A DNA stretch of 64,000 nt from Dendrophyllia cribrosa (taxonomy: Eukaryota > Cnidaria > Anthozoa > Scleractinia > Dendrophylliidae), in contig JAJLRJ010000010.1 in NCBI GenBank assembly GCA_024195265.1, positions 36,030,126 to 36,094,125 of the forward strand, given 5' to 3'. Below are positions 5,566-40,300 of the stretch, in pieces. The position numbers and the translations under genes are program-made. The notes below the pieces were generated by a model that searched no databases, was not told the DNA's origin, and saw only the letters and a list, made by a program, of their open reading frames with translations. Every line of letters starts with the position of its first letter. The first letter of the stretch is position 1.

Positions 5566-5639
5566 AAAGAACCATCTCAAGGACTCAAGGAGTGAAAGTA
5601 AGACGAAATCTTAATCATGCTCCTTGTTTGCCCTGACAG

Positions 5640-10457: not shown

Positions 10458-10488
<31 letters not shown>

Positions 10489-10490
10489 AG
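10040..10490. repeat. Dispersed repeat with GTGCCGCTGGGACTCT motif and poly-G end
   Basis: This copy contains GTGCCGCTGGGACTCT followed by CCCTTAACCTATACTAGACC and repeated CCCTATTCTAGACC-like phrases. It ends in ACATACCTATATATGGGGG, a G-run at about 10459-10485. Related copies occur at about 14625-14735, 17635-17745 and 58075-58168. No ORF is present. It looks like a non-autonomous dispersed repeat of unknown class. Confidence 0.7.
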
Positions 10491-11558: not shown

Positions 11559-11599
11559 ATCAAAGTGCCCTTTGGGCTATCTCCTGTAAGTTTTTCCCC

Positions 11600-12480: not shown

Positions 12481-12840
12481 TGAATGTCACTGTTGTTAAC
12501 AAACAGTTATATCAAGAACAGAAATGAGCTAAACATAGTTGCTAGAGCTGTCGTGGTCGTCTTTGGCATTTTCGTTCTTGGATATTAGACACTTATACAT
12601 CTCAGCGTGACGAAGAAACACTCTTTCACAAGCCTTGCACGTTGGAGACTTTAACACTGCATCACGAACTAAGAAATTTACTGATCCTAACATTTTCATA
12701 GCGATAACATAAACTTATTTACCTTGCAACACGACTCTGAGCCAAAGAAACCCTAATATATGCCTAATGGTAATCTAACGGGACAAATATCTCGTAGGTC
12801 TACTCGGGAAAGCTATTCTAATCAGTTAAGGAATTTAATA

Positions 12841-14021
12841 AGAAAGGAATAAGGAATTAATGGGTATAACCGGAGTAATGTCGTGTTAGGGACGGACCAT
12901 TAGATTTTTGAGGGGGGGGGGGGGGATTTTTTGGTGCAGGATATTTTTTTCTACGCTCGAGACTGTGCAAGATTTCTCTTTTTGCCATGATTTGCTTGCA
13001 TGATATTTTTTTTGCGAGTCTATATGTTTTAATGCCTGACGCATATACGTGTTAGGAATACTAGAAAGGCCATACTAGGGAAAGGAATACTATAGCAAGT
13101 CAGATGCGATGTAACAGTAGCTTGATAGCATGAAGCCTGGCCGCGGTGTTGTAACTGCCCCTACAATTTTCTTTACACCAGCCCCCTGTTGATGTCGCCT
13201 TCACAGCTCATCGTAGTAAACCCAACCATCTTACAATTACAGGGGCGGCGCCAGAATATAATGTTGGTGGGGCGAATCTCCTGTGCCGAGCGCCGAAGGC
13301 GCAAGCTTCTAGGGGGGTCCGGGGGCATGCTCCCCCGGGAAATTTTTGAAATGAAACTCTCTGAAATGCTATTTCCAGTGTTCCTGAGACCGGAGAAGCA
13401 GTTTCCAAGGCCAGCTTTGAGTTCAGTTTAATTCTCATGAAAAGTACGTACACGAAACACTTTCTGAAACTTGGGTGTAACTCCATTTTGGTTGTTTGTT
13501 CAAAGTAGATTCGACTGTCACTCGAATATTCTCTGTCAATTCTTTTCAGTGTGGGAAGACTTTGGAAACGAATTTTCCAAAGCGATTTTCTCTGTCATTG
13601 GAGGCAGAAAGAAACTGATTTCCAATATCAGCCATGTTCAATTTGTCAGTTAATGCAATGTCATGGCGGCAAATGAGTGAAATGAAGTTAGCTGACTAAT
13701 ACAGAGAACGGGTTGCTGCAAAAAAACAGTACATGATTTCCACTTACATTTTCGAAATAAACACTTCAATGTATTTTCTAAGCTGTAGGCGATAAAGAAC
13801 GGGTTTTACACTATAACTTTTATGAGGAATTATTTAAAATAAATCGAACTTGTTCGAAATGCGTTACGCTTTATGTTTGCACCCAAAAACTAAAACTGAA
13901 ACATTAATTCCCTGCGAACTATGTCGGCAGATGGCTAAATTTTCCTGCCTGCCCTCCGTTGGCATATCCCACAAAAAAAATCGCTCAAAAACGTAAAAAT
14001 CCTCAGGTGTCAATGGGTTAA
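12841..14021. other. Insert specific to copy 1, dispersed repeats, no gene
   Basis: It contains a G-run at about 12912-12925. It also holds a GC-rich block at 13240-13345 with GGGGCGGCGCCAG and a small palindrome CGGGGGCATGCTCCCCCGG. This block resembles a common invertebrate dispersed repeat. Open frames on both strands at 13189-13653 cover the repeat and have no domain. Confidence 0.5.
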
Positions 14022-15489
14022 AAGCAAAACTTTCTAGAATTTTCTAGAATAATATCTTAACTTCCTAGGATCATATTTCTTATCTTTAATCTCTTGTCCA
14101 GAAGAATAAGCATTTTAAAACTCGTTGACGTAACGCCACCAGTAATGAAGAATGTAAAACAGTCAATGGATTCTTCGATTGTGGAGCAGTTACATTATTG
14201 GGGCTATGCTTCGAATTCTTTATTTCTTATGTACGCTTAAAGCCCGGTTTCACAAATAGTAGAGTTTGCTATCTTTTATGACCTTGAAGTTCTGGTTATG
14301 TCAAGTGATATGACGTCACTTTGTGGTCATTTTTATCTGTGAATACGGTCAATACGCGAAGCAATGTCTTTGACTTCAAACTCAGTATGGAAAATTAAAC
14401 CGATCTGTGGACTTCAAATGGATTTTTCAACACTTCCATAAACGCTACACCACGATATAAATGTGAAGTCATTCGAGAAAGCGCCAGCCTTATAATTAAT
14501 TCATAGAAATTCATCTATTCTTAATCTCAAAAACACTTGAAACAGAAAAACTTGCCCGCAGGTTACTAACCACTTGAAAATCTCGCCAAACTTAAAACCG
14601 GGGGAGATACTCTATATATTTTTTGGGGAGCATGTGCCGCTGGGACTCTAAAACCCTTACCCTATACAAAACCATACCTTTCACAGCCACACATACCTAT
14701 ATACCTTACAATAAAACTACCCCCCCCCCCCCCCCCCCCCCGGAAAAAGGGACACACGGCCAATTTATAGGTCGGGCTGCTTTGCTAAGCCCGACCAACA
14801 AAACATCATTGTAAATGCGTACCTCACACTCTCTTTTCCCTTTCTTTAGGACGTAGTGCTATAAATAATACCAAATGTCCTGAAGCAACTAGTTTGACAG
14901 TTTGACAATCCCAAAGGATGTTAGCCCCGGATGTTAGCCAAGCGCGCTTCAGCGTGCCAAATATCTGACCAAAGTCTACATTAGGTCAAGATAAGATTAC
15001 ATTTACGTAACACGTTTTGACGCTCGATACAATTACCTACATGCTTCAAGCAACATGTTCCCAAAAAAACATAGAATTCGTAATCGTACGCCTTAAAAAT
15101 CATTGCTATGCACGAGAGACATTAAACAGAATGTTACCTAACTGAAAAAATATATATACCGAGGCATTTTTCAAAACTGCGTGTATATGAAATTTAACAC
15201 GCATATTTTTTTAGATTAAGGTCAAGTCAAGAAACCACTGTATTGAAATTATTGAAATAGCGAGAGCTTGAATTTTTGATAAAATACGGCCAAATAAATT
15301 GCTCTCTCTTCTAACGTTCTCTAAAATCTCAGTTAACTAAATCAACCTATGAATATATGGCTTTGTCAGGCCACAATCGTGCGCTCGCTAAACAGCTTTC
15401 AAAAAATATCCCACTCGACTCTTGTGTTCTTATTGATAGCATCTAACAATCAAAGTGCCCTCTGGGCTATCTCCTGTAAGTTTTTCCCC

Positions 15490-16110
15490 ATCATGCAATG
15501 CTGTCAGATTATGTCTGGATATTGTTTTTGATGTTGCAATTGGACTTTTAGGTTAGAGTGCGTGGTTTCTTGACTTCAATTTCTCTTTCGACAAGTAAGT
15601 TTCCATGTTATTGGTAATGGTTATGCAGTCCTCTTGTCTTGTGTCTGGAGCAAGTTTCAGTACTTTCAACTCGTCTGGATTTTCACCTGGTTTATTACCA
15701 AGAGCTTCATACAAACATTGTGTTACTGTTGCCTTCCCTAAACCCACGCCACTACTTAAAGTGTCAATTGATTCTCGTCGTTTTTAACAGAGAGTAACAT
15801 GGTAAAAAAAAACGCCATTTGTTCTCTGTTGAAAGATTGAACAAGTTCTCTATAACTGTTATCATCCATACGATTAATTACTAGCTTTTCATTATCATTT
15901 GCTGTAGAAAAAATTCCAGCATTACTTAAAAAAAGATTGGTCCCTTGGTGATTGTTATCTAAACATGGGTTTAAACAACCAAATAGTTCCCTGTACAGTA
16001 TCTAACTGATCACGTTCCTTATTTTCAGGATCTCCCATAACTTTATGTAAGAGTTCTCCTTGCTTTTCTTTCAAATATAACATGTTTTATTTGCTCCAGT
16101 ATAGGAACAT
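15490..16110 (-). pseudogene. PIF1-like helicase remnant of a Helitron, copy 2
   Basis: This is the duplicate of the remnant at 11600-12480, with the same Walker A-like stretch GLGKATVTQCLYEAL followed by GNKPGENPDELKVLKLAP. A few substitutions separate the two. The copies share the same disabling changes, so decay came before the duplication. Confidence 0.7.
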
Positions 16111-16589
16111 GATAGGAGCTTATTACTCCTGAACATGATTGCATTTTCATTCTTAGATTTTTAATAGATACTTACATCCGTGATCAAAAAACACTTTCTA
16201 ACAAGTCTTGCACGCGGCAGGCTGTGGACACATAATCACGGCCTATTTACTGATCCTAATATGTCCACAGCGGTAACATAAACTTCAGCCGATTGCCATT
16301 TATTTTGCAACACGTGTCAGCCAAAGAAACCCTAACAGTATATGCCAGGACAGTGCAGCGAATACATAGAGAAATAAAATAATTATAATCATGGCTATGG
16401 CATGAAATCCTCCGGGATCGTGTCATCAGAGAAATTATCCAAAGATCAATGGGTCAATATTATCGAGCAAAGTAGATAGATAATTGCGACTTGTCACATC
16501 CTAACAGTGATCTATAGCAAGGAACAAATACCTCGTAAACCTACTTGGGAAAGCTATTTTAAAACAGAAAAGTCATTAGCAAGGATTAG

Positions 16590-16990
16590 TGTGGTGTCAT
16601 CGTCGTACTGTGACACTTTGCTCTGTTTGTTATTCGAGCCTGGGATTTGAATTAGGCCGGCCCTCAATGCTCGGTTCCCGGCGAATAGCTTGGCCTAAAG
16701 TCTCAGCTACAATGAGAGGCGACAAAGGATCGCCCTGTCTAACTCCCCCTTCAAGAACAAACGCTGGCGAAAACCAACCGTTGTTCGTGACAACTTTAGT
16801 TATGTCTGTACATAAATAACTTTAAATTAATTACCCATCGCCGGAAATGCAGTCCCAGGTTAAAGCGATGTAGCACACGTTGTAAGAAATCGTAATTCAC
16901 GCGATCGAAAGCCTTTTCCTGATCAAGACTGATCAATTTTCTTTGCATTGTACAATTTAAAACAAGCAGCAATGTCTGCTATTAAAAACA
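16590..16990 (-). pseudogene. LINE reverse transcriptase fragment (L1/Tx1-like)
   Basis: On the minus strand the fragment reads [19 protein letters not shown] (part of the first catalytic block, with the D of the KAFD motif). After a frameshift come [19 protein letters not shown] and VRQGDPLSPLIVAE. The G-V-R-Q-G-D-P-L-S-P-L box is typical of L1/Tx1-clade reverse transcriptases. The FADD-containing region and all flanking domains are missing. The fragment is present only in copy 2 of the duplication. Confidence 0.8.
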
Positions 16991-18480
16991 CGGGTATTGA
17001 GAAGAATCGGCGATTAAATTTGAGATAAGTCGATATATTAAAAGCAAAACTTTCTAGAATTTTCTAGAATAATATCTTAACTTCCTAGAATCATATTTCA
17101 TATCTTTAATCTCTTGTCCAGAAGAATAAGCATTTTAAAACTCGTTGGCGTAACGCCACGAGTAATGAAGAATGTAAAACAGTCAACGGATTCTTCGATT
17201 GTGGAGCAGTTACATTATTGGGGCTACATGTATGCTTCGAATTCTTAATTTCTTATGTACACTTAAAGCCCGGTTTCACAAATGGTAGAGTTTGCTATCT
17301 TTTATGACCTTGAAGTTCCGGTTATGACAAGTGATATGATGTCACTTTGTGGTCATTTTTATCTGTGAATGCGGTCAATACGCCAAGCAATGTCTTTGAC
17401 TTGAAACTCAGTATGGAAAATTAAACCGATCTGTGGACTTCAAATGGATTTTTCAACACTTCCATAGACGCTACACCACGATATAAATGTGAAGTCATTC
17501 GAGAAAGCGCCGGCCTTATAATTAATTCATCTATTCTTAATCTCAAAAACACTTGAAACAGAAAAACTTGTCCGCAGGTTACTAACCACTTCTCGCCAAA
17601 CTTAAAACCGGGGGAGATACTCTATATACTTTTTGGGGAGCATGTGCCGCTGGGACTCTAAAACCCTTACCCTATACAAAACCATACCCTTCACAGCCAC
17701 ACATACCTATATAACTTACAATAAAACTACCCCCCCCCCCCCCTCCCCCTCCGGAAAAAGGGACACACGGCCAATTTTTAGGTCGGGCTGCTTTGCTAAG
17801 CCCGACCAACAAAACATCATTGTAAATGCATACCTCAAACTCTCTTTTCCCTTTCTTTAGAACGTAGTGCTATAAATAATACCAAAATAATTATTAATGT
17901 CCTGAAGCAACTAGTTTGACAGTTTGACAATCCAGATTGGACAAACATTAAAACACATCGTAAAGGATATTAGCCAAGCGTGCTTCAGCGTGCCAAATAT
18001 CTGACCAAAGTCTACATTAGGTCAAGATAACATTACGTAACACGTTTTGACGCTCGATACAATTACCTACATGCTTCAAGCAACATGTTCCCCAAAAAGC
18101 ATAGAATTCATAATCGTCCTTAAAAATCATTGCTATGCACGAGAGACATTAAACAGTAAGAATGTTACCTAACCGAAAAAAAATATATACCGAGGCATTT
18201 TTCAAAACTGCGTGTATATGAAATTTAACACGCATATTTTTTTAGATTAAGGTCAAGTCAAGAAACCACTGTATTGAAATTATTGAAATAGCGAGAGCTT
18301 GAATTTTTGATAAAATACGGCCAAATAAATTGCTCTCTCATCTAACGTTCTCTAAAATCTCAGTTAACTAAATCAACCTATGAATATATGGCTTTGTCAG
18401 GCCACAATCGTGCGCTCGCTAAACAGCTTTCAAAAAATATCCCACTCGACTCTTGTGTTCTTATTGATAGCATCTAACAA

Positions 18481-19138: not shown

Positions 19139-19266
19139 AAAAGTGTTTGGAGAAATGTTCGTCCCCTGACTCAGAAGGGAGCGTTATGTGCGGTTCTTGC
19201 TGCGACGAAGACCTGTGTAACAAGGGAGAGGGACCTAAGGCATCTGAACTGTCAGGAACATGGTAA
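19139..19266 (+). CDS. Ly6/uPAR three-finger-domain protein, last exon, interrupted
   Basis: The acceptor GAGATTTAG ends at 19138. The frame encodes KKCLEKCSSPDSEG, then VMCGSCCDEDLCNKGEG. The CC-x4-CN ending (CCDEDLCN) is the signature of the Ly6/uPAR (three-finger) fold, whose animal members are mostly GPI-anchored surface or secreted proteins. After ELSGT the frame meets the foldback element and stops at TAA 19264-19266. Skipping the element, the same frame continues at 32078 into a hydrophobic tail (see that entry). As it stands, the product would end two codons after the break and lack the tail. Upstream exons with the signal peptide and first cysteines are not visible. Spliced or alternative products cannot be judged from sequence. 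Confidence 0.75.
19254..19261. repeat. Left target-site duplication of the foldback element
   Basis: AGGAACAT here is repeated at 32070-32077, immediately outside the other terminus. It is part of the Ly6 coding frame (codons for G-T and the first base of the next). Confidence 0.9.
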
Positions 19267-19380
19267 TACGTTCATGATAACCGTCACGAATATAGCATTT
19301 CTAACGTTTAAGTCTTTCGGAAACTCATACTAAACTTTCTAAGCTATCCGTTATGGCCGATGTCCTCCTATAGTTATTGT
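19262..19380 (+). repeat. Left terminal inverted repeat of the foldback element
   Basis: This is unique-sequence TIR of about 110 bp followed by the first satellite units. It starts GGTAATACGTTCATGATAAC. It pairs with 31951-32069, differing at three positions (for example GCATTTC versus ACATTTC). Confidence 0.92.
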
Positions 19381-22300
19381 AGTTCTTTAGTTCTGTAGCT
19401 TTGGTAGTTCTGTAGTTCTTGTAGTTCTTGTAGTTCTGTAGTTCTGTAGTTATGGTAGTTCTTGTAGTTCTCGTAGTTCTGTAGTTCTAGTAGTTCTTGT
19501 AGCTATTGTAGTTCTTGTAGTTCTGTAGTTCTGGTAGTTCTTGTAGTTCTTGTAGTTCTGTAGTTCTCGTAGTTCTGTAGTTCTGGTAGTTCGGTAGTTC
19601 TCGTAGTTCTGGTAGTTCTTGTAGTTCTGTAGTTCTGTAGTTCTCGTAGTTCTGTAGTTCTGGTAGTTCGGTAGTTCGGTAGTTCTTGTAGTTCTTGTAG
19701 TTCTGTAGTTCTAGTAGTTCTTGAAGTTCTTGTAGTTCTGTAGTTCTGGTAGTTCTGTAGTTCCGTAGTTCTGTAGTTCTGTAGTTTTGGAAGTTCTGTA
19801 GTTCTGGTAGTTCTGTAGTTCTGGTAGTTCTTGTAGTTCTTGTAGTTCTGTAGTTCTGTAGTTCTTGTAGTTCTGTAGTTATGGTAGTTCTTGTAGTTCT
19901 TGTAGTTCTGTAGTTCTAGTAGTTCTTGTAGTTCTTGTAGTTCTGTAGTTCTGTAGTTCTGTAGTTCTGGTAGTTCGGTAGTTCTTGTAGTTCTATAGTT
20001 ATGTAGTTCTCGTAGTTCTGGTAGTTCGGTAGTTCGGTAGTTCTTGTAGTTCTTGTAGTTCTAGTACTTCTTGTAGTTCTGTAGTTCTGTAGTTTTGTAG
20101 TTCTCGTAGTTCTGGTAGTTCTTGTAGTTATGTAGTTCTGTAGTTCTGGTAGTTCGGTAGTTCTGTAGTTCTTGTAGTTCTTGTAGTTCTGTAGTTCTTG
20201 TAGTTCTTGTAGTTCTGTAGTTCTGTAGTTTTTGTAGTTCGGTAGTTCGGTAGTTCTTGTAGTTCTTGTAGTTCTAGTAGTTCTTGTAGTTCTGTAGTTC
20301 TGTAGTTCTCGTAGTTCTCGTAGTTCTCGTAGTTCTCGTAGTTCTGTAGTTCTGGTAGTTCTTGTAGTTCTGTAGTTCTGGTAGTTCGGTAGTTCGGTAG
20401 TTCTCGTAGTTCTGTAGTTCTGGTAGTTCTTGTAGTTCTTGTAGTTCTGTAGTTCTGTAGTTCTCGTAGTTCTGTAGTTCTGGTAGTTCGGTAGTTCGGT
20501 AGTTCTATAGTTCTTGTAGTTCTTGTAGTTCTCTAGTTCTGGTAGTTCTGTAGTTCCGTAGTTCTGTAGTTCTGTAGTTTTGGAAGTTCTGTAGTTCTGG
20601 TAGTTCTGTAGTTCTGGTAGTTCTTGTAGTTCTTGTAGTTCTGTAGTTCTGTAGTTCTTGTAGTTCTGTAGTTATGGTAGTTCTTGTAGTTCTTGTAGTT
20701 CTGTAGTTCTATTAGTTCTTGTAGTTCTTGTAGTTCTGTAGTTCTGTAGTTATCGTAGTTCTGTAGTTCTGTAGTTCTGGTAGTTCGGTAGTTCGGTAGT
20801 TCTGGTAGTTCGGTAGTTCGGTAGTTCTTGTAGTTCTTTTAGTTCTAGTAGTTCTTGTAGTTCTGTAGTTCTGTAGTTCTGTAGTTCTCGTAGTTCTCGT
20901 AGTTCTGGTAGTTCTTGTAGTTCTGTAGTTCTGTAGTTCTGTAGTTCTGGTAGTTCGGTAGTTCGGTAGTTCTTGTAGTTCTTGTAGTTCTTGTAGTTCT
21001 GTAGTTCTAGTAGTTCTTGTAGTTCTTGTAGTTCTGTAGTTCTGTAGTTCTGGTAGTTCGGTAGTTCGGTAGTTCTTGTAGTTCTTGTAGTTCTTGTAGT
21101 TCTTGTAGTTCGGTAGTTCTGTAGTTCTCGTAGTTCTCGTAGTTCTCGTAGTTCTCGTAGTTCTGTAGTTCTGGTAGTTCTTGTAGTTCTTGTAGTTCTG
21201 TAGTTCTTGTAGTTCTGTAGTTATGGTAGTTCTTGTAGTTCTTGTAGTTCTTGTAGTTCTGTAGTTCTATTAGTTCTTGTAGTTCTTGTTGTTCTGTAGT
21301 TCTGTAGTTATCGTAGTTCTGTAGTTCTGGTAGTTCGGTAGTTCGGTAGTTCTTGTAGTTTTATAGTTCTGTAGTTCTCGTAGTTCTGTAGTTCTGGTAG
21401 TTCGGTAGTTCGGTAGTTCTTGTAGTTCTTGTAGTTCTAATAGTTCTTGTAGTTCTGTAGTTCTGTAGTTCTGTAGTTCTCGTAGTTCTCGTAGTTCTGG
21501 TAGTTCTTGTAGTTCTGTAGTTCTGTAGTTCTGTAGTTCTGGTAGTTCGGTAGTTCGGTAGTTCTTGTAGTTCTTGTAGTTCTGTAGTTCTAATAGTTCT
21601 TGTAGTTCTTGTAGTTCTGTAGTTCTGTAGTTCTGGTAGTTCGGTAGTTCGGTAGTTCTTGTAGTTCTTGTAGTTCTAGTAGTTCTTGTAGTTCTGTAGT
21701 TCTGTAGTTCTGTAGTTCTCGTAGTTCTCGTAGTTCTCGTAGTTCTCGTAGTTCTCGTAGTTCTGTAGTTCTGGTAGTTCTTGTAGTTCTTGTAGTTCTG
21801 TAGTTCTGGTAGTTCTGTAGTTCCGTAGTTCTGTAGTGCTGTAGTTCTGTAGTTTTGGTAGTTCTGTAGTTCTGGTAGTACTGTAGTTCTGTAGTTCTGG
21901 TAGTTCGGTAGTTCTGGTAGTTCTGTAGTTCTGTAGTTCGGTAGTTCTTGTAGTTCTTGTAGTTCTGTAGTTCTAGTAGTTCTTGTAGTTCTGTAGTTCT
22001 GTAGTTCTGTAGTTCTCGTAGTTCTGTAGTTCTTGTAGTTCTGTAGTTCTAGTAGTTCTTGTAGTTCTTGTAGTTCTGTAGTTCTGTAGTTCTGGTAGTT
22101 CTGTTGTTCCGTAGTTCTGTAGTTCTGTAGTTCTGTAGTTCTGTAGTTTTGGTAGTTCTGTAGTTCTGGTAGTTCTGTAGTTCTGTAGTTCTGTTGTTCT
22201 GTAGTTCTCGTAGTTCTGTAGTTCTGGTAGTTCGGTAGTTCGGTAGTTCTGGTAGTTCTGTAGTTCGGTAGTTCTTGTAGTTCTTGTAGATCTGTAGTTC

Positions 22301-23305
22301 TAGTAGTTTTTGTAGTTCTTGTAGTTCTGTAGTTCTGTAGTTCTGTAGTTCGGTAGTTCTTGTAGTTCTTGTAGTTCTAGTAGTTTTTGTAGTTCTGTAG
22401 TTCTGTAGTTCTGTAGTTCTGTAGTTCTCGTAGTTCTTTTAGTTCTCGTAGTTCTGTAGTTCGGTAGTTCTTGTAGTTCTAGTAGTTCTTGTAGTTCTGT
22501 AGTTCTGTAGTTCTCGTAGTTCTCGTAGTTCTGTAGTTCTGGTAGTTCTTGTAGTTCTGTAGTTCTGTAGTTCTGGTAGTTCGGTAGTTCGGTAGTTCTT
22601 GTAGTTCTTATAGTTCTGTAGTTCTAGTAGTTCTGTAGTTCTGGTAGTTCTGTAGTTCTGTAGTTCTGTAGTTCTCGTAGTTCTGTAGTTCTGGTAGTTC
22701 GGTAGTTCGGTAGTTCGATAGTTCTGTAGTTCGGTAGTTCTTGTAGTTCTTGTAGTTCTGTAGTTCTGTAGTTATCGTAGTTCTGTAGTTCTGTAGTTCT
22801 GGTAGTTCGGTAGTTCGGTAGTTCGGTAGTTCGGTAGTTCGGTAGTTCGGTAGTTCTTGTAGTTCTTGTAGTTCTTGTAGTTCTGTAGTTCTAGTAGTAC
22901 TTGTAGTTCTTGTAGTTCTGTAGTTCTGTAGTTCTGGTAGTTCGGTAGTTCGGTAGTTCTTGTAGTTCTTGTAGTTCTTGTAGTTCTTGTAGTTCTGTAG
23001 TTCTGTAGTTCTGTAGTTCTGTAGTTCTCGTAGTTCTCGTAGTTCTCGTAGTTCTGTAGTTATGGTAGTTCTTGTAGTTCTTGTAGTTCTTGTAGTTCTG
23101 TAGTTCTATTAGTTCTTGTAGTTCTTGTAGTTCTGTAGTTCTGTAGTTATCGTAGTTCTGTAGTTCTGTAGTTCTGGTAGTTCGGTAGTTCGGTAGTTCT
23201 TGTAGTTTTATAGTTCTGTAGTTCTCGTAGTTCTGTAGTTCTGGTAGTTCGGTAGTTCGGTAGTTCTTGTAGTTCTTGTAGTTCTAATAGTTCTGTAGTT
23301 CTGTA
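19371..23305 (+). repeat. Left-arm satellite, part 1
   Basis: This is a short-period satellite made of 7-10-bp variants: GTAGTTCTG, GTAGTTCTTG, GTAGTTCGG and TAGTTCTC. The variants occur in recurring orders, so longer higher-order blocks are visible. One example is the string with CCGTAGTTCTGTAGTGCTG near 21825, which recurs near 26130 and 28030. No coding content. Confidence 0.97.
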
Positions 23306-23551
23306 TGGGGTTAGTTTCTAGAGAAACTGTGGTGCTGCGTCGGTGGGGGGATGAAACACGAGAATTTAGTTTTATCGACTGAGTCGATAAGGTAAATTGA
23401 CCACCGTAAAAAGATTCAAATAGCTGACGTTTCGAGCGCTAGCCCTTCGTCGGAGCGAATCAAGGAATTGTGGGTAGTGTGTGGTTTTATATAGTAAGCG
23501 GTGGAGCTACGCTATTGGTGGAAATTTGGTGACGTGAAAAAGAAATGTAAA

Positions 23552-24697
23552 TTAGTTGAATGAAAAGCGTTCGTTGATTCCGTGGGGTTTGAGAGTGCCG
23601 ATTTGAAAGATGATTTTTTGTTCTAGGTTTTTACGGCTTTCTATGTTACCCTGGTGTAGGGAAAGGCCGCAGATTGTCATGTGTTGTTTAGAATGGTTAG
23701 TAAGATTAAAATGGCGCGCGACTGGTTTGGATGCGTCTTTGTCATTTTTTTCAACGTCTCGGAGATGTTCACGAAAACGGTCGCCCAGTCTCCTCCCTGT
23801 TTCGCCAATGTATATCTTTTTGCAAAAAGTACATGTTATGCAGTAGATAACATTTACGGAGGTGCATGTAAAACGATCAGTGATTTTAATAGATCGTTTG
23901 GGTCCTGTTATTTTGTCCGCGTTGTGAATGAAAGGACAAGTGTTACATCGTGTGCGTGTGCATTTGAAAGTTCCCGGTTTATCGTCAGATTTCAGTGCGC
24001 TCGTAACTAGAAAGTTGCCTATGTTTTTGTCACGTTTGAATGAAATTAGTGGGGGTTGTGAAAAAATTCTGCCAGTTTCGGGGTCGTTTTGGAGTAATTT
24101 GAAATTTTTTAAAATGATGCTTTTGACTGTGTTGTTGTGTGGGTGGAAAGTGAGGGTGAATGGAATTCTCTCGTTCTCTTCCTTCTGTGGCGTTTGTAGT
24201 GCTGATTGTCTGTCGATCTGTTGTGCACGTTGTTGGCCCGTATTAACAACAGAGTCAGGGTACCCACGTTTCTTGAAAAACTGGCACATTTCTTCTGATT
24301 TGTTGGAAAAATCAGAGTCATCACTACATAGCCGTCGAAGTCTGAGAAATTGAGAATACGGAATGGCGTTTTTAACGTGCGATGGATGTGAGGATGAATG
24401 TAACAGATAACTGTGGGAATCTGTAGGTTTGTAGTGCACACTTGTGGATAAACTGTTACCGTTGATTGAAATATTAATGTCAAGAAAAGCGACTGAGGTT
24501 TCGGAAATTTCCCAGGTATATTTTAGAGCTGGATGAAAAGTATTGACAGAAGTTATGAATTGATTAAGTTCCTCTTTACTGGAAGAGGTAGCGCCAATGC
24601 AATCATCGATGTAGCGGCCGTAGAGTTCGGGTTTGGTTCCGTGGTACTGATTAAAAAATTTGTCTTCGATGTGGCCTACAAAAAGGTTAGCGTAGCT
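23552..24697 (-). CDS. Penelope-like RT C-terminus with GIY-YIG endonuclease, minus copy
   Basis: The minus-strand frame is open from the junction to the stop at 23552. In order it contains the entry phrase SYANLFVGHIED, the catalytic GRYIDDCIG box, VAFLDINISI, the HYKPTDSHSYLLHSSSHPSH segment typical of the PLE thumb, and IPYSQFLRLRRLCS. Next comes a cysteine cluster CTRTRCNTCPF that precedes the endonuclease, then GIY-YIG motifs VIYCITCTFC and KKIYIGETGRRLGDRFREHL. Penelope-like elements use the GIY-YIG nuclease with the reverse transcriptase for target-primed insertion. The N-terminal half of the reverse transcriptase is missing (5' truncation), so this copy cannot act alone. It has 250 bases more RT sequence than the plus copy. 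Confidence 0.92.
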   Translation of the reverse strand, partial: SYANLFVGHIEDKFFNQYHGTKPELYGRYIDDCIGATSSSKEELNQFITSVNTFHPALKYTWEISETSVAFLDINISINGNSLSTSVHYKPTDSHSYLLHSSSHPSHVKNAIPYSQFLRLRRLCSDDSDFSNKSEEMCQFFKKRGYPDSVVNTGQQRAQQIDRQSALQTPQKEENERIPFTLTFHPHNNTVKSIILKNFKLLQNDPETGRIFSQPPLISFKRDKNIGNFLVTSALKSDDKPGTFKCTRTRCNTCPFIHNADKITGPKRSIKITDRFTCTSVNVIYCITCTFCKKIYIGETGRRLGDRFREHLRDVEKNDKDASKPVARHFNLTNHSKQHMTICGLSLHQGNIESRKNLEQKIIFQIGTLKPHGINERFSFN

Positions 24698-25600
24698 AGT
24701 TTATCCACAAGTGTGCACTACAAACCTACAGATTCCCACAGTTATCTGTTACATTCATCCTCACATCCATCGCACGTTAAAAACGCCATTCCGTATTCTC
24801 AATTTCTCAGACTTCGACGGCTATGTAGTGATGACTCTGATTTTTCCAACAAATCAGAAGAAATGTGCCAGTTTTTCAAGAAACGTGGGTACCCTGACTC
24901 TGTTGTTAATACGGGCCAACAACGTGCACAACAGATCGACAGACAATCAGCACTACAAACGCCACAGAAGGAAGAGAACGAGAGAATTCCATTCACCCTC
25001 ACTTTCCACCCACACAACAACACAGTCAAAAGCATCATTTTAAAAAATTTCAAATTACTCCAAAACGACCCCGAAACTGGCAGAATTTTTTCACAACCCC
25101 CACTAATTTCATTCAAACGTGACAAAAACATAGGCAACTTTCTAGTTACGAGCGCACTGAAATCTGACGATAAACCGGGAACTTTCAAATGCACACGCAC
25201 ACGATGTAACACTTGTCCTTTCATTCACAACGCGGACAAAATAACAGGACCCAAACGATCTATTAAAATCACTGATCGTTTTACATGCACCTCCGTAAAT
25301 GTTATCTACTGCATAACATGTACTTTTTGCAAAAAGATATACATTGGCGAAACAGGGAGGAGACTGGGCGACCGTTTTCGTGAACATCTCCGAGACGTTG
25401 AAAAAAATGACAAAGACGCATCCAAACCAGTCGCGCGCCATTTTAATCTTACTAACCATTCTAAACAACACATGACAATCTGCGGCCTTTCCCTACACCA
25501 GGGTAACACAGAAAGCCGTAAAAACCTAGAACAAAAAATCATCTTTCAAATCGGCACTCTCAAACCCCACGGAATCAACGAACGCTTTTCATTCAACTAA
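24698..25600 (+). CDS. Penelope-like RT C-terminus with GIY-YIG endonuclease, plus copy
   Basis: This is the mirror copy of 23552-24697, starting at LSTSVHYKPTDSH and lacking the YIDD box. The GIY-YIG domain (KKIYIGETGRRLGDRFREHL) and the C-terminus GINERFSFN are complete. The two copies differ at one residue that I could see (GNTESR here, GNIESR in the other). The open frame continues upstream of 24698 to 24533, but that part is antisense to the other copy's catalytic region and is an accident of the inversion. Confidence 0.9.
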   Translation, partial: SLSTSVHYKPTDSHSYLLHSSSHPSHVKNAIPYSQFLRLRRLCSDDSDFSNKSEEMCQFFKKRGYPDSVVNTGQQRAQQIDRQSALQTPQKEENERIPFTLTFHPHNNTVKSIILKNFKLLQNDPETGRIFSQPPLISFKRDKNIGNFLVTSALKSDDKPGTFKCTRTRCNTCPFIHNADKITGPKRSIKITDRFTCTSVNVIYCITCTFCKKIYIGETGRRLGDRFREHLRDVEKNDKDASKPVARHFNLTNHSKQHMTICGLSLHQGNTESRKNLEQKIIFQIGTLKPHGINERFSFN

Positions 25601-25789
25601 TTTACATTTGTTTTTCACGTCACCAAATTTCCACCAATAGCGTAGCTCCACCGCTTACTATATAAAACCACACACTACCCACAATTCCTTGATTCGCTCC
25701 GACGAAGGGCTAGCGCTCGAAACGTCAGCTATTTGAATCTTTTTACGGTGGTCAATTTACCTTATCGACTCAGTCGATAAAACTAAATT

Positions 25790-28700
25790 CTGTAGTTCTG
25801 TAGTTCTGTAGTTCTCGTAGTTCTCGTAGTTCTGGTAGTTCTTGTAGTTCTGTAGTTCTGTAGTTCTGGTAGTTCGGTAGTTCGGTAGTTCTTGTAGTTC
25901 TTGTAGTTCTGTAGTTCTAGTAGTTCTTGTAGTTCTTGTAGTTCTGTAGTTCTGTAGTTCTGGTAGTTCGGTAGTTCGGTAGTTCTTGTAGTTCTTGTAG
26001 TTCTAGTAGTTCTTGTAGTTCTGTAGTTCTGTAGTACTGTAGTTCTCGTAGTTCTCGTAGTTCTCGTAGTTCTCGTAGTTCTGTAGTTCTGGTAGTTCTT
26101 GTAGTTCTTGTAGTTCTGTAGTTCTGGTAGTTCTGTAGTTCCGTAGTTCTGTAGTGCTGTAGTTCTGTAGTTTTGGTAGTTCTGTAGTTCTGGTAGTTCT
26201 GTAGTTCTGTAGTTCTGTAGTTCTGTAGTTCTGTAGTTCTGGTAGTTCGGTAGTTCTGGTAGTTCTGTAGTTCTGTAGTTCGGTAGTTCTTGTAGTTCTT
26301 GTAGTTCTGTAGTTCTAGTAGTTCTTGTAGTTCTGTAGTTCTGTAGTTCTGTAGTTCTGTAGTTCTGTAGTTCTCGTAGTTCTGTAGTTCTGGTAGTTCG
26401 GTAGTTCTTGTAGTTCTGTAGTTCTAGTAGTTCTTGTAGTTCTTGTAGTTCTGTAGTTCTGTAGTTCTGGTAGTTCTGTTGTTCCGTAGTTCTGTAGTTC
26501 TGTAGTTCTGTAGTTCTGTAGTTCTGTAGTTTTGGTAGTTCTGTAGTTCTGGTAGTTCTGTAGTTCTGTTGTTCTGTAGTTCTCGTAGTTCTGTAGTTCT
26601 GGTAGCTCGGTAGTTCGGTAGTTCTGGTAGTTCTGTAGTTCGGTAGTTCTTGTAGTTCTGTAGTTCTGGTAGTTCTGTAGTTCTGTAGTTTTGTAGTTCC
26701 GGTAGTTCTGTAGTTCTGGTAGTTCGGTAGTTCTGGTAGTTCTGTAGTTCGGTAGTTCTTGTAGTTCTTGTAGATCTGTAGTTCTAGTAGTTTTTGTAGT
26801 TCTTGTAGTTCTGTAGTTCTGTTGTTCTTGTAGTTCTTGTAGTTCTTGTAGTTCTAGTAGTTTTTGTAGTTCTGTAGTTCTGTAGTTCTGTAGTTCTCGT
26901 AGTTCTTTTAGTTCTCGTAGTTCTGTAGTTCGGTAGTTCTTGTAGTTCTAGTAGTTCTTGTAGTTCTGTAGTTCTGTAGTTCTCGTAGTTCTCGTAGTTC
27001 TGTAGTTCTGGTAGTTCTTGTATTTCTGTAGTTCTGTAGTTCTGGTAGTTCGGTAGTTCGGTAGTTCGGTAGTTCTTGTAGTTCTTATAGTTCTGTAGTT
27101 CTAGTAGTTCTGTAGTTCTGGTAGTTCTGTAGTTCTGTAGTTCTGTAGTTCTCGTAGTTCTGTAGTTCTGGTAGTTCGGTAGTTCGGTAGTTCTGTAGTT
27201 CGGTAGTTCTTGTAGTTCTTGTAGTTCTGTAGTTCTAGTAGTTTTTGTAGTTCTTTCAGTTCTGGAGTTCTAGTAGTTTTTGTAGTTCTGTAGTTCTGTA
27301 GTTCTGTAGTTCTCGTAGTTCTTGTAGTTCTCGTAGTTCTGTAGTTCGGTAGTTCTTGTAGTTCTAGTAGTTCTTGTAGTTCTGTAGATCTGTAGTTCTG
27401 TAGTTCTCGTAGTTCTCGTAGTTCTGTAGTTCTGGTAGTTCTTGTAGTTCTGTAGTTCTTGTAGTTCTGTAGTTCTTGTAGTTCTTGTAGTTCTTGTAGT
27501 TCTTGTAGTTCTGTAGTTCTATTAGTTCTTGTAGTTCTTGTAGTTCTGTAGTTCTGTAGTTATCGTAGTTCTGTAGTTCTGTAGTTCTGGTAGTTCGGTA
27601 GTTCGGTAGTTCTTGTAGTTTTATAGTTCTGTAGTTCTCGTAGTTCTGTAGTTCTGGTAGTTCGGTAGTTCGGTAGTTCTTGTAGTTCTTGTAGTTCTAA
27701 TAGTTCTGTAGTTCTGTAGTTCTGTAGTTCTCGTAGTTCTCGTAGTTCTGGTAGTTCTTGTAGTTCTGTAGTTCTGTAGTTCTGTAGTTCTGGTAGTTCG
27801 GTAGTTCGGTAGTTCTTGTAGTTCTTATAGTTCTGTAGTTCTGTAGTTCTGGTAGTTCGGTAGTTCGGTAGTTCTTGTAGTTCTTGTAGTTCTAGTAGTT
27901 CTTGTAGTTCTGTAGTTCTGTAGTACTGTAGTTCTCGTAGTTCTCGTAGTTCTCGTAGTTCTCGTAGTTCTGTAGTTCTGGTAGTTCTTGTAGTTCTTGT
28001 AGTTCTGTAGTTCTGGTAGTTCTGTAGTTCCGTAGTTCTGTAGTGCTGTAGTTCTGTAGTTTTGGTAGTTCTGTAGTTCTGGTAGTTCTGTAGTTCTGTA
28101 GTTCTGTAGTTCTGGTAGTTCGGTAGTTCTGGTAGTTCTGTAGTTCTGTAGTTCTGTAGTTCTGTAGTTCTGGTAGTTCGGTAGTTCTTGTAGTTCTGTA
28201 GTTCTAGTAGTTCTAGTAGTTCTTGTAGTTCTGTAGTTCTGTAGTTCTGTAGTTCTGTAGTTCTCGTAGTTCTGTAGTTCTGGTAGTTCGGTAGTTCTTG
28301 TAGTTCTGTAGTTCTAGTAGTTCTTGTAGTTCTTGTAGTTCTGTAGTTCTGTAGTTCTGGTAGTTCTGTTGTTCCGTAGTTCTGTAGTTCTGTAGTTCTG
28401 TAGTTTTGGTAGTTCTGTAGTTCTGGTAGTTCTGTAGTTCTGTTGTTCTGTAGTTCTCGTAGTTCTGTAGTTCTGGTAGCTCGGTAGTTCGGTAGTTCTG
28501 GTAGTTCTGTAGTTCGGTAGTTCTTGTAGTTCTTGTAGATCTGTAGTTCTAGTAGTTTTTGTAGTTCTTGTAGTTCTGTAGTTCTGGTAGTTCTGTAGTT
28601 CTGTAGTTCTGTAGTTCCGGTAGTTCTGTAGTTCTGGTAGTTCGGTAGTTCTGGTAGTTCTGTAGTTCGGTAGTTCTTGTAGTTCTTGTAGATCTGTAGT

Positions 28701-29003
28701 TCTAGTAGTTTTTGTAGTTCTTGTAGTTCTGTAGTTCTGTTGTTCGGTAGTTCTTGTAGTTCTTGTAGTTCTAGTAGTTTTTGTAGTTCTGTAGTTCTGT
28801 AGTTCTGTAGTTCTCGTAGTTCTTTTAGTTCTCGTAGTTCTGTTGTTCGGTAGTTCTTGTAGTTCTTGTAGTTCTAGTAGTTTTTGTAGTTCTGTAGATC
28901 TGTAGTTCTGTAGTTCTCGTAGTTCTCGTAGTTCTGTAGTTCTGGTAGTTCTTGTAGTTCTGTAGTTCTGTAGTTCTGGTAGTTCGGTAGTTCGGTAGTT
29001 CGG
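25790..29003 (+). repeat. Left-arm satellite, part 2
   Basis: This continues the GTAGTTCTG-type satellite after the Penelope-like insertion, in the same orientation as part 1. Blocks repeat internally. The string with GTAGATCTGTAGTTCTAGTAG occurs near 22288, 26770, 28535 and 28688. The part ends GTAGTTCGGAAC, where the orientation reverses. Confidence 0.97.
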
Positions 29004-31959
29004 AACGAACTACGAGAACTACGAGAACTACAGAACTACAGAACTACAGTACTACAAGAACTACTAGAACTACAAGAACTACAAGAACTACCGAACTACC
29101 GAACTACAGAACTACGAGAACTACAGAACTACAGAACTACAAGAACTACAATAACTACTAGAACTTGAGAACTACAAGAACTACAAGAAATACCGAACTA
29201 CCGAACTACCAGAACTACATAACTACAAGAACTACAAGAACTACCAGAACTACAGAACTACAGAACTACTAGAACTACAAGAACTACAAGACCTACCGAA
29301 CTACCGAACTACCAGAACTACAGAACTACGAGAACTACAGAACTACAGAACTACAAGAACTACAAGAACTACTAGAACTACAGAACTACAAGAACTACAA
29401 GAACTACCGAACTACCGAACTACCAGAACTACAGAACTACAGAACTACAGAACTACCAGAACTACAGAACTACCAAAACTACAGAACTACAGAACTACGG
29501 AACTACAGAACTACCAGAACTACAGAACTACAAGAACTACAAGAACTACAAGAACTACTAGAACTACAGAATTACAAGAACTACAAGAACTACCGAACTA
29601 CTGAACTACCAGAACTACAAGAACTACCAGAACTACAGAACTACGAGAACTACGAGAACTACAGAACTACAGAACTACAAGAACTACTAGAACTACAAGA
29701 ACTACAAGAACTACCGAACAACCAAACTACCAGAACTACAGAACTACGAGAACTACAGAACTACAGACTTACAGAACTACAAGAACTACAAGAACTACTA
29801 GAACCACAGAACTACGAGAACTACAGAACTACAGAACTACTAGAACTAAAAGAACTACTAGAACTACAGAACTACGAGAACTACAGAACTACAGAACTAC
29901 AGAACTACAAGAACTACTAGAACTACCGAACTACCAAACTACCAGAACTACGGAACTACGAGAACTACAGAACTACAGAAGTACAGAACTATAAGAACTA
30001 CTAGAACTACAGAACTACGAGAACTACAGAACTACAGAACTACAGAACTACAAGAACTACAAGAACTACTAGAACTACAGAACTACGAGAACTACAGAAC
30101 TACAGAACTACCAGAACTACAGAACTACCAGAACTACAGAACTTCCAAAACTACAGAACTACAGAACTACGGAACTACAGAACTACCAGAACTACAGAAC
30201 TACAAGAACTACAGAACTACGAGAACTACAGAACTACAGAACTACAAGAACTAAAAGAACTACTAGAACTACAGAACTACGAGAACTACAGAACTACAGA
30301 ACTACAAGAACTACTATAACTACAAGAACTACCGAACTACCAAACTACCAGAATTACAGAACAACGAGAACTACAGAACTACAAGAACTACCGAACTACC
30401 AAACTACCAGAACTACGGAACTACGAGAACTACAGAACTACAGAAGTACAGAACTATAAGAACTACTAGAACTACAGAACTACGAGAACTACAGAACTAC
30501 AGAACTACAGAACTACAGAACTACAGAACTACAAGAACTACAAGAACTACAGAACTACGAAAACTACAGAACTACAGAACTACCAGAACTACAGAACTAC
30601 AGAACTACCGAACTACATAACTACAAGAACTACAAGAACTACCAGAACTACAGAACTACGAGAACTACGAGAACTACGAGAACTACAGAACTACAGAACT
30701 ACAGAACTACAAGAACTACAAGAACTACAAGAACCACCGAACTACCGAACTACCACAACTACAGAACTACGAGAACTACAGAACTACAGAACTACGAGAA
30801 CTACGAGAACTACAGAACTACAGAACTGCAAGAACTAAAATAACTACTAGAACTACAGAACTACGAGAACTACAGAACTACAAGAACTACCGAACTACCA
30901 AACTACCAGAACTACAGAACTACGAGAACTACAGAACTACAGAACTACAGAACTACAGAACTACAAGAACTACAAGAACTACAAAACTACGAGAACTACA
31001 GAACTACAGAACTACAGAACTACAAGAACTACAAGAACTACTAGAAGTACAGAACTACGAGAACTACAGGACTACAGAACTACGAGAACTACAGAACTAC
31101 CAGAACTACAGAACTACAGAACTACAAGAACTACAAGAACTACAAGAACTACCAGAACTACGAGAGCTACGAGAACTACGAGAACTACAGAACTACAGAA
31201 CTACGAGAACTACCGAACTACCGAACTACCAGAACTACAGAACTACGAGAACTACATAACTACAAGAACTACAAGAACTACCAGAACTACAGAACTACAA
31301 TAACTACAAGAACTACTAGAACTACAGAACTACAAGAACTACAAGAACTACCATAACTACAGAACTACAAGAACTACAGAACTACAAGAACTACAAGAAC
31401 TACCAGAACTACAGAACTACAGAACTACCAGAACTACAGAACTTCCAAAACTACAGAACTACAGAACTACGGAACTACAGAACTACCAGAACTACAGAAC
31501 TACAAGAACTACAAGAACTACTAGAACTACAGAACTACAAGAACTACAAGAACTACAAGAACTACAAGAACTACAAGAACTACCGAACTACCGAACTACC
31601 AGAACTACAGAACTACAGAACTACAAGAACTACAAGAACTACAAGAACTACCACCAGAACTACAGAACTACGAGAACTACGAGAACTACGAGAACTACAG
31701 AACTACAAGAACTACAAGAACTACAAGAACCACCGAACTACCGAACTACCAGAACTACAGAACTACGAGAACTACAGAACTACAGAACTACAAGAACTAA
31801 AAGAACTACTAGAACTACAGAGCTACGAGAACTAAAGAAATACAGAACTACAGAACTACAGAACTACAGAACTACAGAACTACAAGAACTACAAGAACTA
31901 CTAGAACTACAGAACTACGAGAACTACAGAACTACCAGAACTACAGAACTACAATAACT
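29004..31959 (-). repeat. Right-arm satellite (inverted orientation)
   Basis: This is the same satellite read on the opposite strand (AGAACTAC, AAGAACTAC, CCGAACTAC). At about 3.0 kb it is much shorter than the left arm (about 7.2 kb without the insert), so the arms have expanded or contracted independently. It ends ACAATAACTATAGG, the mirror of the left-arm start. Confidence 0.97.
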
Positions 31960-32069
31960 ATAGGAGAACATCGGCCAGAACGGATAGCTTAGAAAGTTTA
32001 GTATGAGTTTCCGAAAGACTTAAACGTTAGAAATGTTATATTCGTGACGGTTATCATGAACGTATTACC
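31951..32069 (-). repeat. Right terminal inverted repeat of the foldback element
   Basis: This is the inverted partner of 19262-19380, ending AACGTATTACC at the element border. It is followed directly by the target duplication AGGAACAT. Confidence 0.92.
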
Positions 32070-32077
32070 AGGAACAT
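32070..32077. repeat. Right target-site duplication of the foldback element
   Basis: AGGAACAT is identical to 19254-19261. Together with the perfect terminal bases it fixes the insertion borders. Confidence 0.9.
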
Positions 32078-36440: not shown

Positions 36441-36730
36441 GCGTTTACGTATTGACAAAATAGCGCCAATATGGTTTCACTTTAAAAAAAAATATCTTAA
36501 ATTCGAAAAAAGGAAAAAGAAAAGATAGGAAATTACTTGGTGCATTAATATGTTCCGCGAGTCCCTTCCGGGTGAAGTCCATTCCCCGGTATTAAATTTA
36601 ATGTCAACATAATTATGCATTGGGACAATTCCCAGAAATTACGAGATAGAGGACAATTTACTGCAAAGCACGGAAGTAGATATGTTTATGACATCTATCT
36701 CTGCTTTGAATTGTAGTTAAATGTGCTGAT

Positions 36731-37375
36731 ATGTCTTCCACTGTATCTTTACAAGAAGCCATCGAAGAATTTAAGTGCTACACGGATCGTACGTCGTCGC
36801 TTTTCTCGCGGACCCAAACATGTTTTCAGGAAATTGTGGCAAGTATTGGCCCAGTACATGTCGGTGAAACCAAAGACACCCACACATTGATTCCTTTCTC
36901 GCAACTGGACGAGGTAGAAAGAGAGCTTCAGAAGAGCCCCTCTGTATTTTTCATCGGCGAAAAGAACTGCGGAAAAAGCTCTATCATTAACGAGCTCCTT
37001 CGACAGACCTCTTTGCCCGTCAACGAAACCCCATGCACGGCGAGAATCGTCAGAATCAAATTTGCCGAGAAACCATACGCAAGGCTCGTCGGATCGAATG
37101 GCGAAGAAGTCAAAAGAGAGCCTCTTCGTGGTAAAAAACTCCCTGAAAAGCTCATAGTAGTTTCAGATGACGACAGAGAGAACGCTCGAGAATTGGACGC
37201 GACCGTGGAAGTCGGATTAAATCATCATCTTCTCCAAAGTGGAATCGAGCTGATCGACTCTCCAGGCAAGAGTGAGTCCGAGGTCTTGGACACGGTTTTG
37301 GATGGCTTCCTAAAGAAAGGCACTGTACCCTTGTTTGTGTACGTTATTGACGGCAATAACCACCTTAGACCCTCG
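36731..37375 (+). CDS. DSTYK: DSTYK-like exon 1 (GTPase G1-G3)
   Basis: The exon starts at ATG 36731 and has a donor GTAAGT at 37376. It encodes 215 residues. The P-loop lies in FFIGEKNCGKSSIINELL, a conserved T-P-C-T-A-R switch-like stretch follows (about 100-105), then IDSPGKSESE with the G3 motif. No earlier in-frame ATG with better context was seen. Phase 0 at the 3' end fits exon 2. Confidence 0.88.
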
Positions 37376-40300
37376 GTAAGTGTGAGATAAATTAACGTCA
37401 GGTTGTCATTATCATTACAGTGAACTATTCTGATCTCTTATGCAAGAGTGATCGATATACACGTTCGAAACATAGAGAAAGAAAAAATTTAACCGAAGAG
37501 ATCTAAAATATGCACACTCTAGGATTTCAATCAAAACTCAGTTTATAGAACCACCTTGTACGACATAACAAACAGCACCACAGGAATTAAAGCACTGCTT
37601 TGTGTCTTTTATTTGAACTGGTCACAATTTAGGATTTCACTCACAATCTCAAACGTTAGAACCAGCCATTTTACAGGATAGGCAAGCTTTCATTTGAATG
37701 GTCACACTTTGAGATTTCATTCGATTCATCGACTCAAAAGTTAGAACCATCTGCATTGTACATCATGATAATATTAAATCAGCATCTCCGGAGAGAACTG
37801 TTTTGTATCTTTTGTTTGAATCGCTCATGCACACTCTATGATTATTTCATCCACAACTAGATTAAACTCAGATCTACAAACTTAGAACCACGTACAGCGT
37901 AATATGTACAGAACCACAGGAAACAAAGGAAAGTACTGTTCAATAGCTTTCATTAGAATGGCCACACTTTAGCTTTAGGATTTCATCCACAGACTCAAAA
38001 GTTAAGCCACCTTGTACCGCATAATAAACAGTGCCTCAGGAAAGTACTACCCCTCAATAGCTTTCATTTGAATGGTCACACTTTAGGATTTCATTCACAA
38101 ACTCAAACTTAATGGAGCCACCTTGTACAATTAAATAACACAATCTAGCGAACCTCTTAATCAATGCCCATTTCAGGAGATTCAAAATACTAGGGGTTTC
38201 AAAATAGCAGCTTTGAATATCACTAGTCTCCCTGCACATATTGATGAGTTACGTTTTTATATGAATTCACAATTGATTGATATTCTTGCAATTAATGAAA
38301 CACGTTTAGATGAGTCTATTATAGATAGAGAAATTGGCATACCGGGTTACACCTTGGAAAGGAAAGATCGTAACCGAAATGGTGGGGGAGTGGCACTTTA
38401 CATTAGAAATTCTCTAAACTATGAACGTATGTATGAATACAATGAAGACCAACTTGAGTGGCTTTGTATCAAAGTTACAAAGCCTAAAAGTAAACCTTTT
38501 ATTGTTGGTACTTGGTATAGACCTCCTGCCGCTACCTCTGATATTATGAGGATCTTCGAATCCCTCATTGATAGACTTGAATCTCTAGACCTTGAAACGA
38601 ATATCATCGGGGATTTAAATTGTGATGTGGGTGCCTCCCCTCACGATTCCCAAACCAAACAACTGTTAGATATATGCAATCTCTATCAATATCATCAGTT
38701 TATTGAAGAACCCACTCGTATAACTAGACATACGGCTACCACTATTGACCTATTCTTAACAAATAATCGTAGTCAATATTCTCATTCTGGAGTCTGTCAC
38801 ATAGGCATAAGCGACCACTCTCTCATCTATGCTGTTAGAAAACTATGCGTTCCTAAAAGAAATTCTAAGATTATTACTAGTAGACAATTTAGAAATTTTG
38901 ATGCCAATGCTTTTAGATATGATCTTAATCTGGCTCCGTGGCATATTATCCAAAATGACGAAAATCCAAATCATGCATGGAAAATCTGGAAAGAGATTTT
39001 CCTGAAGATCTCTAACATACATGCACCACTTCGCAAGAGAAAGATTAGAAATGCTTTTGCACCCTGGTTGACCCCCGAACTAAAGAGACAAATGTTCGAA
39101 AGGGATAAACTTAAGAAAATAGCAACTAAATTTAAAACAGATGAAAACTGGACGAACTACAAACATGTACGGAATAGAGTGAATGCCAACATCAAATTAG
39201 CTAAGGTGGCGTATTATAATAATTATTTTAACGAAAACCTGGGCAATATCAAAAATGCATGGAAGGGGGTGAATATGATCATGGGAAAGGATTCCCTCCC
39301 GACTGAAATAAAGGATATTACGGTTGATGGCATGTCGTATACCTCTCCCAGTGAGATATGTAATGTATTAAATGCTCATTTCGTACAAGTGGGACCAAAT
39401 CTAGCAAACAGCATCCCTGAGGCAAATATAAATTTTGATAAGTACATAACGCCATCTCAACATAGTTTCTCACTTATGGAAACTACTAGTGATATAGTAT
39501 ACAGGTTAATTCAGTCAATGCCATTGGACAAAGCGAGTGGTCTTGATGGAATATCATGTAGACTACTAAAAGAAGCAGCTCCAGTTATAACAACTTCTCT
39601 AACGTATATAATAAATTTGTCTATTAGGAGTGGAATATTTCCTGATGATTGGAAAATCGCTAGGGTATCGCCAGTGTTTAAGGAAGATATTAAGTCCGAT
39701 CCAAATAATTACAGACCAATATCTGTTTTACCGATTGTAAGTAAACTAATAGAAAGGATCGTTTTTAACCAACTCTACTCCTTTCTGGTTGAAAATGATT
39801 TACTTGCAGACTCTCAACATGGGTTTAGGCCAAAACATTCAACCTTAACAGCTCTTCTTGAAGCCACAAATGAATGGTATCTAAATATTGATAACGACCT
39901 GTTAAATGGAGTCCTCTTTTTGGACTTAAAAAAAGCTTTCGATACAGTGGACCATAACATTTTACTAAAAAAGCTCGAACTCTATGGAGTAGACCCTCAT
40001 GCTCTCCAATGGTTCACTTCGTATCTTTCGGGACGCCAACAAAAGACATATGTAAATAGTACTCTCTCAAATTCTCTACCTATCGCCTGTGGTGTTCCTC
40101 AAGGATCCATTCTTGGACCCTTATTATTCTTAATTTATATAAATGATCTTCAAATGTGTACATCTTCTTCTGCTACCAAAATGTACGCAGATGATACATG
40201 TCTTTTCGCCAGTGCACAAGATCCCTCTATATTACAGAGTAACCTAAATGAAGGTCTAAAGAAAGTTCTATCATGGCTACATGCTAACAAACTTACATTA

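Follow-up and report, generated by a model that had tools for sequence, protein, structure and literature searches.

The window analyzed here is the whole 64,000-bp stretch of the coral Dendrophyllia cribrosa (C2:36030126-36094125 of the 627-Mb, 22-contig assembly that was searched). Within it, a stretch of 12.8 kb (positions 19262-32069) is confirmed to be a transposon that consists nearly entirely of short tandem repeats, arranged in two mirror-image arms. The features of this element are listed below, with the evidence in parentheses.

19254-19261, unstranded: left 8-bp target duplication AGGAACAT (end comparison)
19262-19386, plus strand: left terminal inverted repeat (TIR), with the final bases already merging into the satellite (122/125 against the right end)
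19371-23305, plus strand: outer part of the plus arm, GTAGTTC-type satellite (Tandem Repeats Finder (TRF), unit counts)
23306-25787, unstranded: nested Penelope-like element, foreign to the original transposon (inverted pair, GIY-YIG match, relatives, uninterrupted paralogous site)
25788-29004, plus strand: inner part of the plus arm, with repeated blocks of ~1.8-2.0 kb (TRF, repeat lags)
29001-29007, unstranded: orientation switch, where the arms abut (unit counts)
29007-31953, minus strand: minus arm, the same satellite inverted (TRF, unit counts)
31945-32069, minus strand: right TIR (match to the left end)
32070-32077, unstranded: right 8-bp target duplication AGGAACAT (end comparison)

The element has the terminal sequences GGTAATACGTT at 19262 and AACGTATTACC at 32069. 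The TIRs occupy the outermost 125 bp at each end and differ at positions 34, 92 and 103 only. The target duplication is exact over 8 bp on both flanks, and a 9-bp duplication does not fit. Satellite DNA is recognized by TRF at 19371-23305 and 25788-29001 in the plus orientation and at 29007-31953 in the minus orientation, for a total of 10,107 bp. Each unit consists of GTAGTTC and one or two further bases, for a length of 8 or 9 bp in most cases. There is a single switch in orientation: with 500-bp bins, the AACTAC motif is absent in the bins preceding that of the switch, and past the switch bin a lone GTAGTT is located in the last bin. These results bear out the initial annotation of this DNA, which had described matching terminal bases, TIRs of ~119 bp with three mismatches, an exact 8-bp duplication, and ~10 kb of satellite that flips near 29004.

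The organization of the arms was examined at the level of the repeat units. Blocks in the plus arm recur at lags of ~1.8-2.0 kb, with the nested insert excluded. Runs of identical units reach a length of 30 within the plus arm, and runs of 11 and 13 are found between the plus and minus arms, compared to at most 8 in shuffled arrays. The two arms also share blocks of units, the best scoring 69 where 15 shuffles gave at most 23.6. Of the 16 blocks listed, 2 (including the strongest) are no more than 100 bp from the mirror diagonal. Measured outward from the switch, the likeness of the arms is 130 over 100 bp (124 in shuffled arms, standard deviation 8) and 1047 over 800 bp (1027, standard deviation 17). 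Inward from the TIRs, one of four comparisons is barely above the shuffles (275 versus a maximum of 274). The mirror-image colinearity of the two arms is weak. A fresh mirror duplication or a read artefact as the origin of the switch was rejected; the unit order around it is not mirrored. Long open frames within the satellite (up to 437 amino acids) were also rejected as genes and are presumably a product of the unit composition. No Rfam family was found in the window at the gathering threshold, nor in the nested insert at E values up to 1, and patterns for the TIR and for the satellite gave no matches in viral_contigs and genome_contigs.

The non-satellite stretch of 2.48 kb in the plus arm (23306-25787), absent from the initial annotation, contains two truncated Penelope-like copies in inverted orientation. 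The two copies (23361-24454 and 24698-25791, the last bases already matching the satellite) are 1094 bp each, are separated by 243 bp, and have two mismatches by BLAST. GIY-YIG matches slightly short of the Pfam cut-off are present in the insert (E values of 0.00016 and 0.00021). A protein search with the insert finds 1414 relatives, one of the 120 listed being from Pocillopora. A paralogous block in the same arm is uninterrupted at 27704-27718. Both flanks of the insert match this block and overlap by 15 bp, TTCTGTAGTTCTGTA, which is the duplication of the insert as seen against the uninterrupted block. The simplest reading is that the Penelope-like insertion is later than at least one block duplication in the plus arm.

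Other copies of the family were sought in the assembly with the TIR as the query, which gave at least 41 matches; 40 of 93 candidates were scored. The copies examined comprise 28 stretches, one extension and one right end, with loci L001-L010 covered only as parts of larger stretches. Among 19 candidate pairs of outermost ends, 16 have exact 8-bp duplications. These 16 duplications are all distinct, none extends to 9 bp, and their A+T content is 75%. The flanks of the 16 elements share no common 16-mer, and GG is present at each full outer end. The initial annotation had proposed as a test that copies should each carry an 8-bp duplication; 16 pairs behave in this way, each with its own sequence, and three do not. 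For another six loci (L026, L028, L031, L032, L036 and L037), the mate is absent from the DNA examined.

In all 15 elements that were read through, the left arm carries plus satellite and the right arm minus satellite. L035 conforms to this arrangement at both ends, in a reading short of the center. The arms abut within ~16 bp in 12 of the 15 (the window element, L011, L012, L014, L015-17, L018, L019, L022, L027, L029, L033 and L034), and a longer spacer separates them in L013, L020-21 and L030. Arms of ~1.0 to 15.1 kb are found, and the two arms of an element often differ in length. The element at L015-17 is 21,621 bp in length and includes 21,378 bp of satellite.

The right ends of L011 and L026 (C21:4499825 and C21:4531845) have the same right flank, as if the end of the locus had been duplicated ~32 kb away. 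L036 and L037, located ~0.3 Mb apart on C18, have the same element end and mirror-image satellite segments in opposite orientation. They look like an inverted segmental duplication or an assembly error.

It has long been asked how satellite arrays reach new locations. One proposal, usually based on traces, is that whole arrays transpose. In this coral genome, arrays of ~4 to 21.6 kb are bounded by intact transposon ends and exact target duplications, and the same nested inserts have been taken to two contigs by one pair of copies; dispersal by transposition can thus be read from the sequence. These copies of ~15 kb, L029 on C21 (duplication GAAAATAT) and L035 on C4 (duplication GGGGTTTA), have 96% identity over 9.9 kb and 99.0% identity over 6.2 kb of their non-satellite core. 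The identical nested inserts and the different duplications show that whole arrays moved as transposons, as the initial annotation had suggested for the window element.

Three further lines of evidence come from comparisons among the copies. The first is the unit order, which was compared for 38 arms from 22 elements or parts; 180 of the 703 arm pairs have a common order, above the best of 60 shuffles. The second is the sequence within 60 bp on either side of the switch, where 6 of 78 pairs exceed the best of 300 shuffles (169). The scores for these pairs are 223 for L012-L014, 211 for L029-L034 (inverted), 206 for L029-L033, 199 for L033-L034 (inverted), 189 for L015-L033, and a marginal 170 for L019-L027. 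The third is provided by diagnostic bases in the TIRs. L029, L034 and L035 have one common change in each TIR, with L034 in inverted orientation, and the first of these changes is found in L018 as well. The shared unit order, switches and TIR changes indicate that the satellite arms predate the movement of these copies. Inverted satellite arms are a common feature of the family and travel with it to new sites. The remaining switches cannot be shown to resemble one another, a hint rather than proof that the center of the element is remade at times.

A second family has nearly the same tips. It was observed as a 9,580-bp element in L020-21 (positions 1248-10827 of the joined stretch), located inside a copy of the first family, with a duplication GTTCTATA and inverted arms of a 9-bp TAGTACCTG satellite. 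Its TIRs are alike over the first 73 bp, the final few of which are satellite, and have 94% identity over 34 bp to the tip of the first family. The switch is near position 5400 of this element, and a minority of plus units persists around the switch to position 6888. A 34-bp pattern for both tip types occurs 171 times in the genome (91 forward and 80 reverse; none in the control), with 100 of the 171 positions listed. Four more pairs of ends have the second tip type, and two of these have exact 8-bp duplications, GAAAAATG and CATAAATC. Satellite is absent directly past the left TIR of the pair with CATAAATC (L049/L050/L053, C18:24389482-24392425) and from 1.5 kb of interior sequence that was read, and the one frame scanned has no recognized domain.

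These observations are very probably explained by a family of non-autonomous foldback DNA transposons, with TIRs followed inward by arms of an 8/9-bp satellite, in which a transposase acting in trans would move whole arrays. The enzyme, most likely of the Merlin (IS1595-like) superfamily, would cut at the GG tips and insert the entire array at AT-rich sites. Between moves, exchange between repeats may lengthen and shorten the arms, as the ~1.9-kb blocks in the plus arm of the window element could reflect, and other elements would insert into the arms.

Several observations weigh against parts of this interpretation. The duplication is absent in three candidate pairs of the first family: L023, a 0.7-kb copy with satellite in one sense only, where 6 of 8 duplication bases agree; L024/L025, where the ends are 49.9 kb apart and perhaps belong to separate elements; and L038, where the left end is incomplete. 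It is also absent in two of the four further pairs of the second tip type. The one-sense satellite in L023 and the tips of L049/L050/L053, free of satellite in the parts read, show that inverted arms are dispensable for carrying the ends. We infer growth of the arms by exchange from one kind of observation, the repeated blocks. Finally, the initial annotation had named as support a full-length copy that shares these ends and encodes a transposase, and no transposase with these ends was found in the genome, which was searched for the Merlin type (IS1595) only. Visual comparison with the 100 listed tips (of 171) places no IS1595 match inside a tip pair. Three Merlin loci (L041, L042 and L043), each read over 2.5-2.6 kb, also lack any TIR-like stretch; the reads of L042 and L043 may stop short of the ends.

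The genome contains 120 matches to the IS1595 domain. L041 (with L044) is a 2.4-kb Merlin element with ends GGGTGACCC, an 8-bp duplication TTTTCACA, and an open transposase frame with an IS1595 domain (72 bits). Both of its TIRs contain 25-bp minisatellite repeats, mutually inverted. No bounded element was recognized at L042 and L043. Another transposase, rva_4, was rejected as the family's own, being part of nested element Y within nested element X in L029. Element X (~3706-11498 of L029, joined with L039) has TTAA ends and inverted ends of 880 bp, and encloses element Y, whose inverted ends contain a 20-bp minisatellite and which has pieces of the rva_4 transposase and a 6-bp duplication GAAACT identified by eye.

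Merlin elements are bounded by GG and by duplications of 8 or 9 bp, with TIRs of 24-462 bp and tandem repeats in the interior (PMC8101967; this and the other papers cited are represented here by excerpts). The window family has GG ends and 8-bp duplications, and the 125-bp TIR of the window element is within this range. The attribution to Merlin had been made from the ends of the window element. It is better founded than before, with GG ends, 8 bp in every exact case and 120 IS1595-domain matches, and is still drawn from such features; Merlin would be our best guess for the likeliest source of the enzyme, rather than a result. The many Merlin genes of the genome are a pool in which the missing transposase can be sought.

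Alternatively, the foldback family is real and its mover is another transposase that produces 8-bp duplications (Mutator-like, hAT, P, Zisupton or Sola1). This is unlikely, though it deserves serious weight: no transposase is tied to the ends of the family in the Merlin-only search, and the foldback-like elements with a known or suggested superfamily belong to Mutator (Tm1, Tetris) or P (Galileo) in the excerpts at hand. However, all 16 exact duplications are 8 bp, compared to mostly 9 bp in Tm1 and mostly 7 bp in Galileo, and GG ends are reported for Merlin families (PMC8101967).

It is improbable that the satellite pre-existed, or expanded in place after the insertion of a small element, with the arrays being immobile. 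The great variation in arm length and the existence of the 0.7-kb L023 indicate that arrays do change length in place. However, unit order and switch sequence are common to copies at different sites, as are the nested inserts in L029 and L035. Immobility is contradicted for this pair, and may still apply to other copies over part of their length. An artefact of the assembly or of fold-back reads has hardly any probability left, since, even though satellite arrays are difficult to assemble and such read artefacts are known (PMC12870357), a fold-back read mirrors both flanks and unit order, whereas the window element has different flanks, TIRs that differ at three sites and an unmirrored unit order, and the same arrangement recurs at other loci, each with its own duplication.

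The window family belongs to the foldback structural class, as it has inverted arms of short tandem repeats and dispersed copies with target duplications. The Foldback element FB has long inverted arms with internal tandem repeats and 9-bp duplications. The 9-bp duplication of the Mutator-like foldbacks (FB and Tm1) is not observed in this family, with 8 bp in 16 of 16 exact cases. Compared by description, the TU elements of sea urchin have foldback arms of 15-bp tandem repeats and 8-bp duplications, and differ by the presence of an inner domain and a middle segment in their arms. A sea urchin foldback is also cited in PMC4079207.

Tetris of Drosophila virilis is a foldback with tandem repeats in its long TIRs, and these repeats have grown into satellite arrays (PMC4079207). 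It resembles the window family in the 8-9 bp duplications of its complete copies and in that no coding copy has been found. In contrast, the repeats of Tetris are ~220 bp in length, its TIRs reach 1,735 bp, its middle domain is variable and it has been suggested to belong to Mutator (PMC4079207), whereas the window family has an 8/9-bp unit, arms of up to ~15 kb and mostly no middle domain. Tm1 of root-knot nematodes also has composite TIRs, with a variable number of ~14-bp repeats, and many copies with duplications, but these are mostly 9 bp and its transposase is Mutator-like (PMC3169594). The long inverted arms of Galileo contain internal tandem repeats, can exceed 4 kb and host other transposons; Galileo is in the P superfamily and has mostly 7-bp duplications (8 bp in three copies), against 8 bp in the window family, with ~140-bp repeats in one copy (PMC4168063). 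In Rehavkus, the duplications are 9 bp and a minisatellite lies close to one end (PMC6446971). Merlin elements share GG ends, 8-bp duplications and internal tandem repeats with the window family and have been proposed to be able to spread proto-satellites, but they are of ordinary size and encode a transposase (PMC8101967), whereas the window family is almost entirely satellite and no transposase was found for it.

Foldbacks with tandem-repeat arms and a link to satellites (Tetris, Tm1, Galileo), as well as tandem repeats in Merlin, are already in print, going by these excerpts. The novelty within the foldbacks is an element that is nearly all satellite, up to 21.6 kb in length and mostly without a middle domain. 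No such description was found among the titles and abstract openings of the literature on coral, cnidarian and Merlin foldbacks, a coverage that leaves most subscription papers and Repbase outside, and a prior one is possible.

The near-identical tips of ~34 bp with different 8/9-bp satellites could define a class of satellite-only foldbacks, for which the making, growth and re-centering of the arms would constitute a life cycle. Pairing of the arms during replication or repair might expand the satellite and shift the switch. We regard this as a tentative proposal, with the balance somewhat against it. If it is true, these transposons would be a main source of the dispersed short satellites in the genome.

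The window contains several other features. A 40-bp tandem repeat forms an array at 1-2226, in which longer higher-order periods are also present. Adjacent direct duplications are found over 11558-18480, where 11558-12209 matches 15448-16095 (96%) and 14018-15449 matches 17038-18480 (93%); this region resembles a tandem duplication in which the middle differs. A 103-bp tandem repeat at 46863-47068 is related to an 88-bp one at 50179-50983. Frames for a dynamin-like GTPase and a kinase, resembling dual serine/threonine and tyrosine protein kinase, are located at 36710-37390, 47390-48976 and 51339-51872. The 867-residue frame at 38135-40738 has endonuclease and reverse transcriptase domains and is a non-long terminal repeat (non-LTR) retrotransposon. 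Polinton-like genes are found at 58325-63254, with a frame for a B-type DNA polymerase and, on the opposite strand, an integrase (rve) frame under the Pfam cut-off. The protein relatives that are named by organism are from stony corals (Stylophora and Pocillopora).
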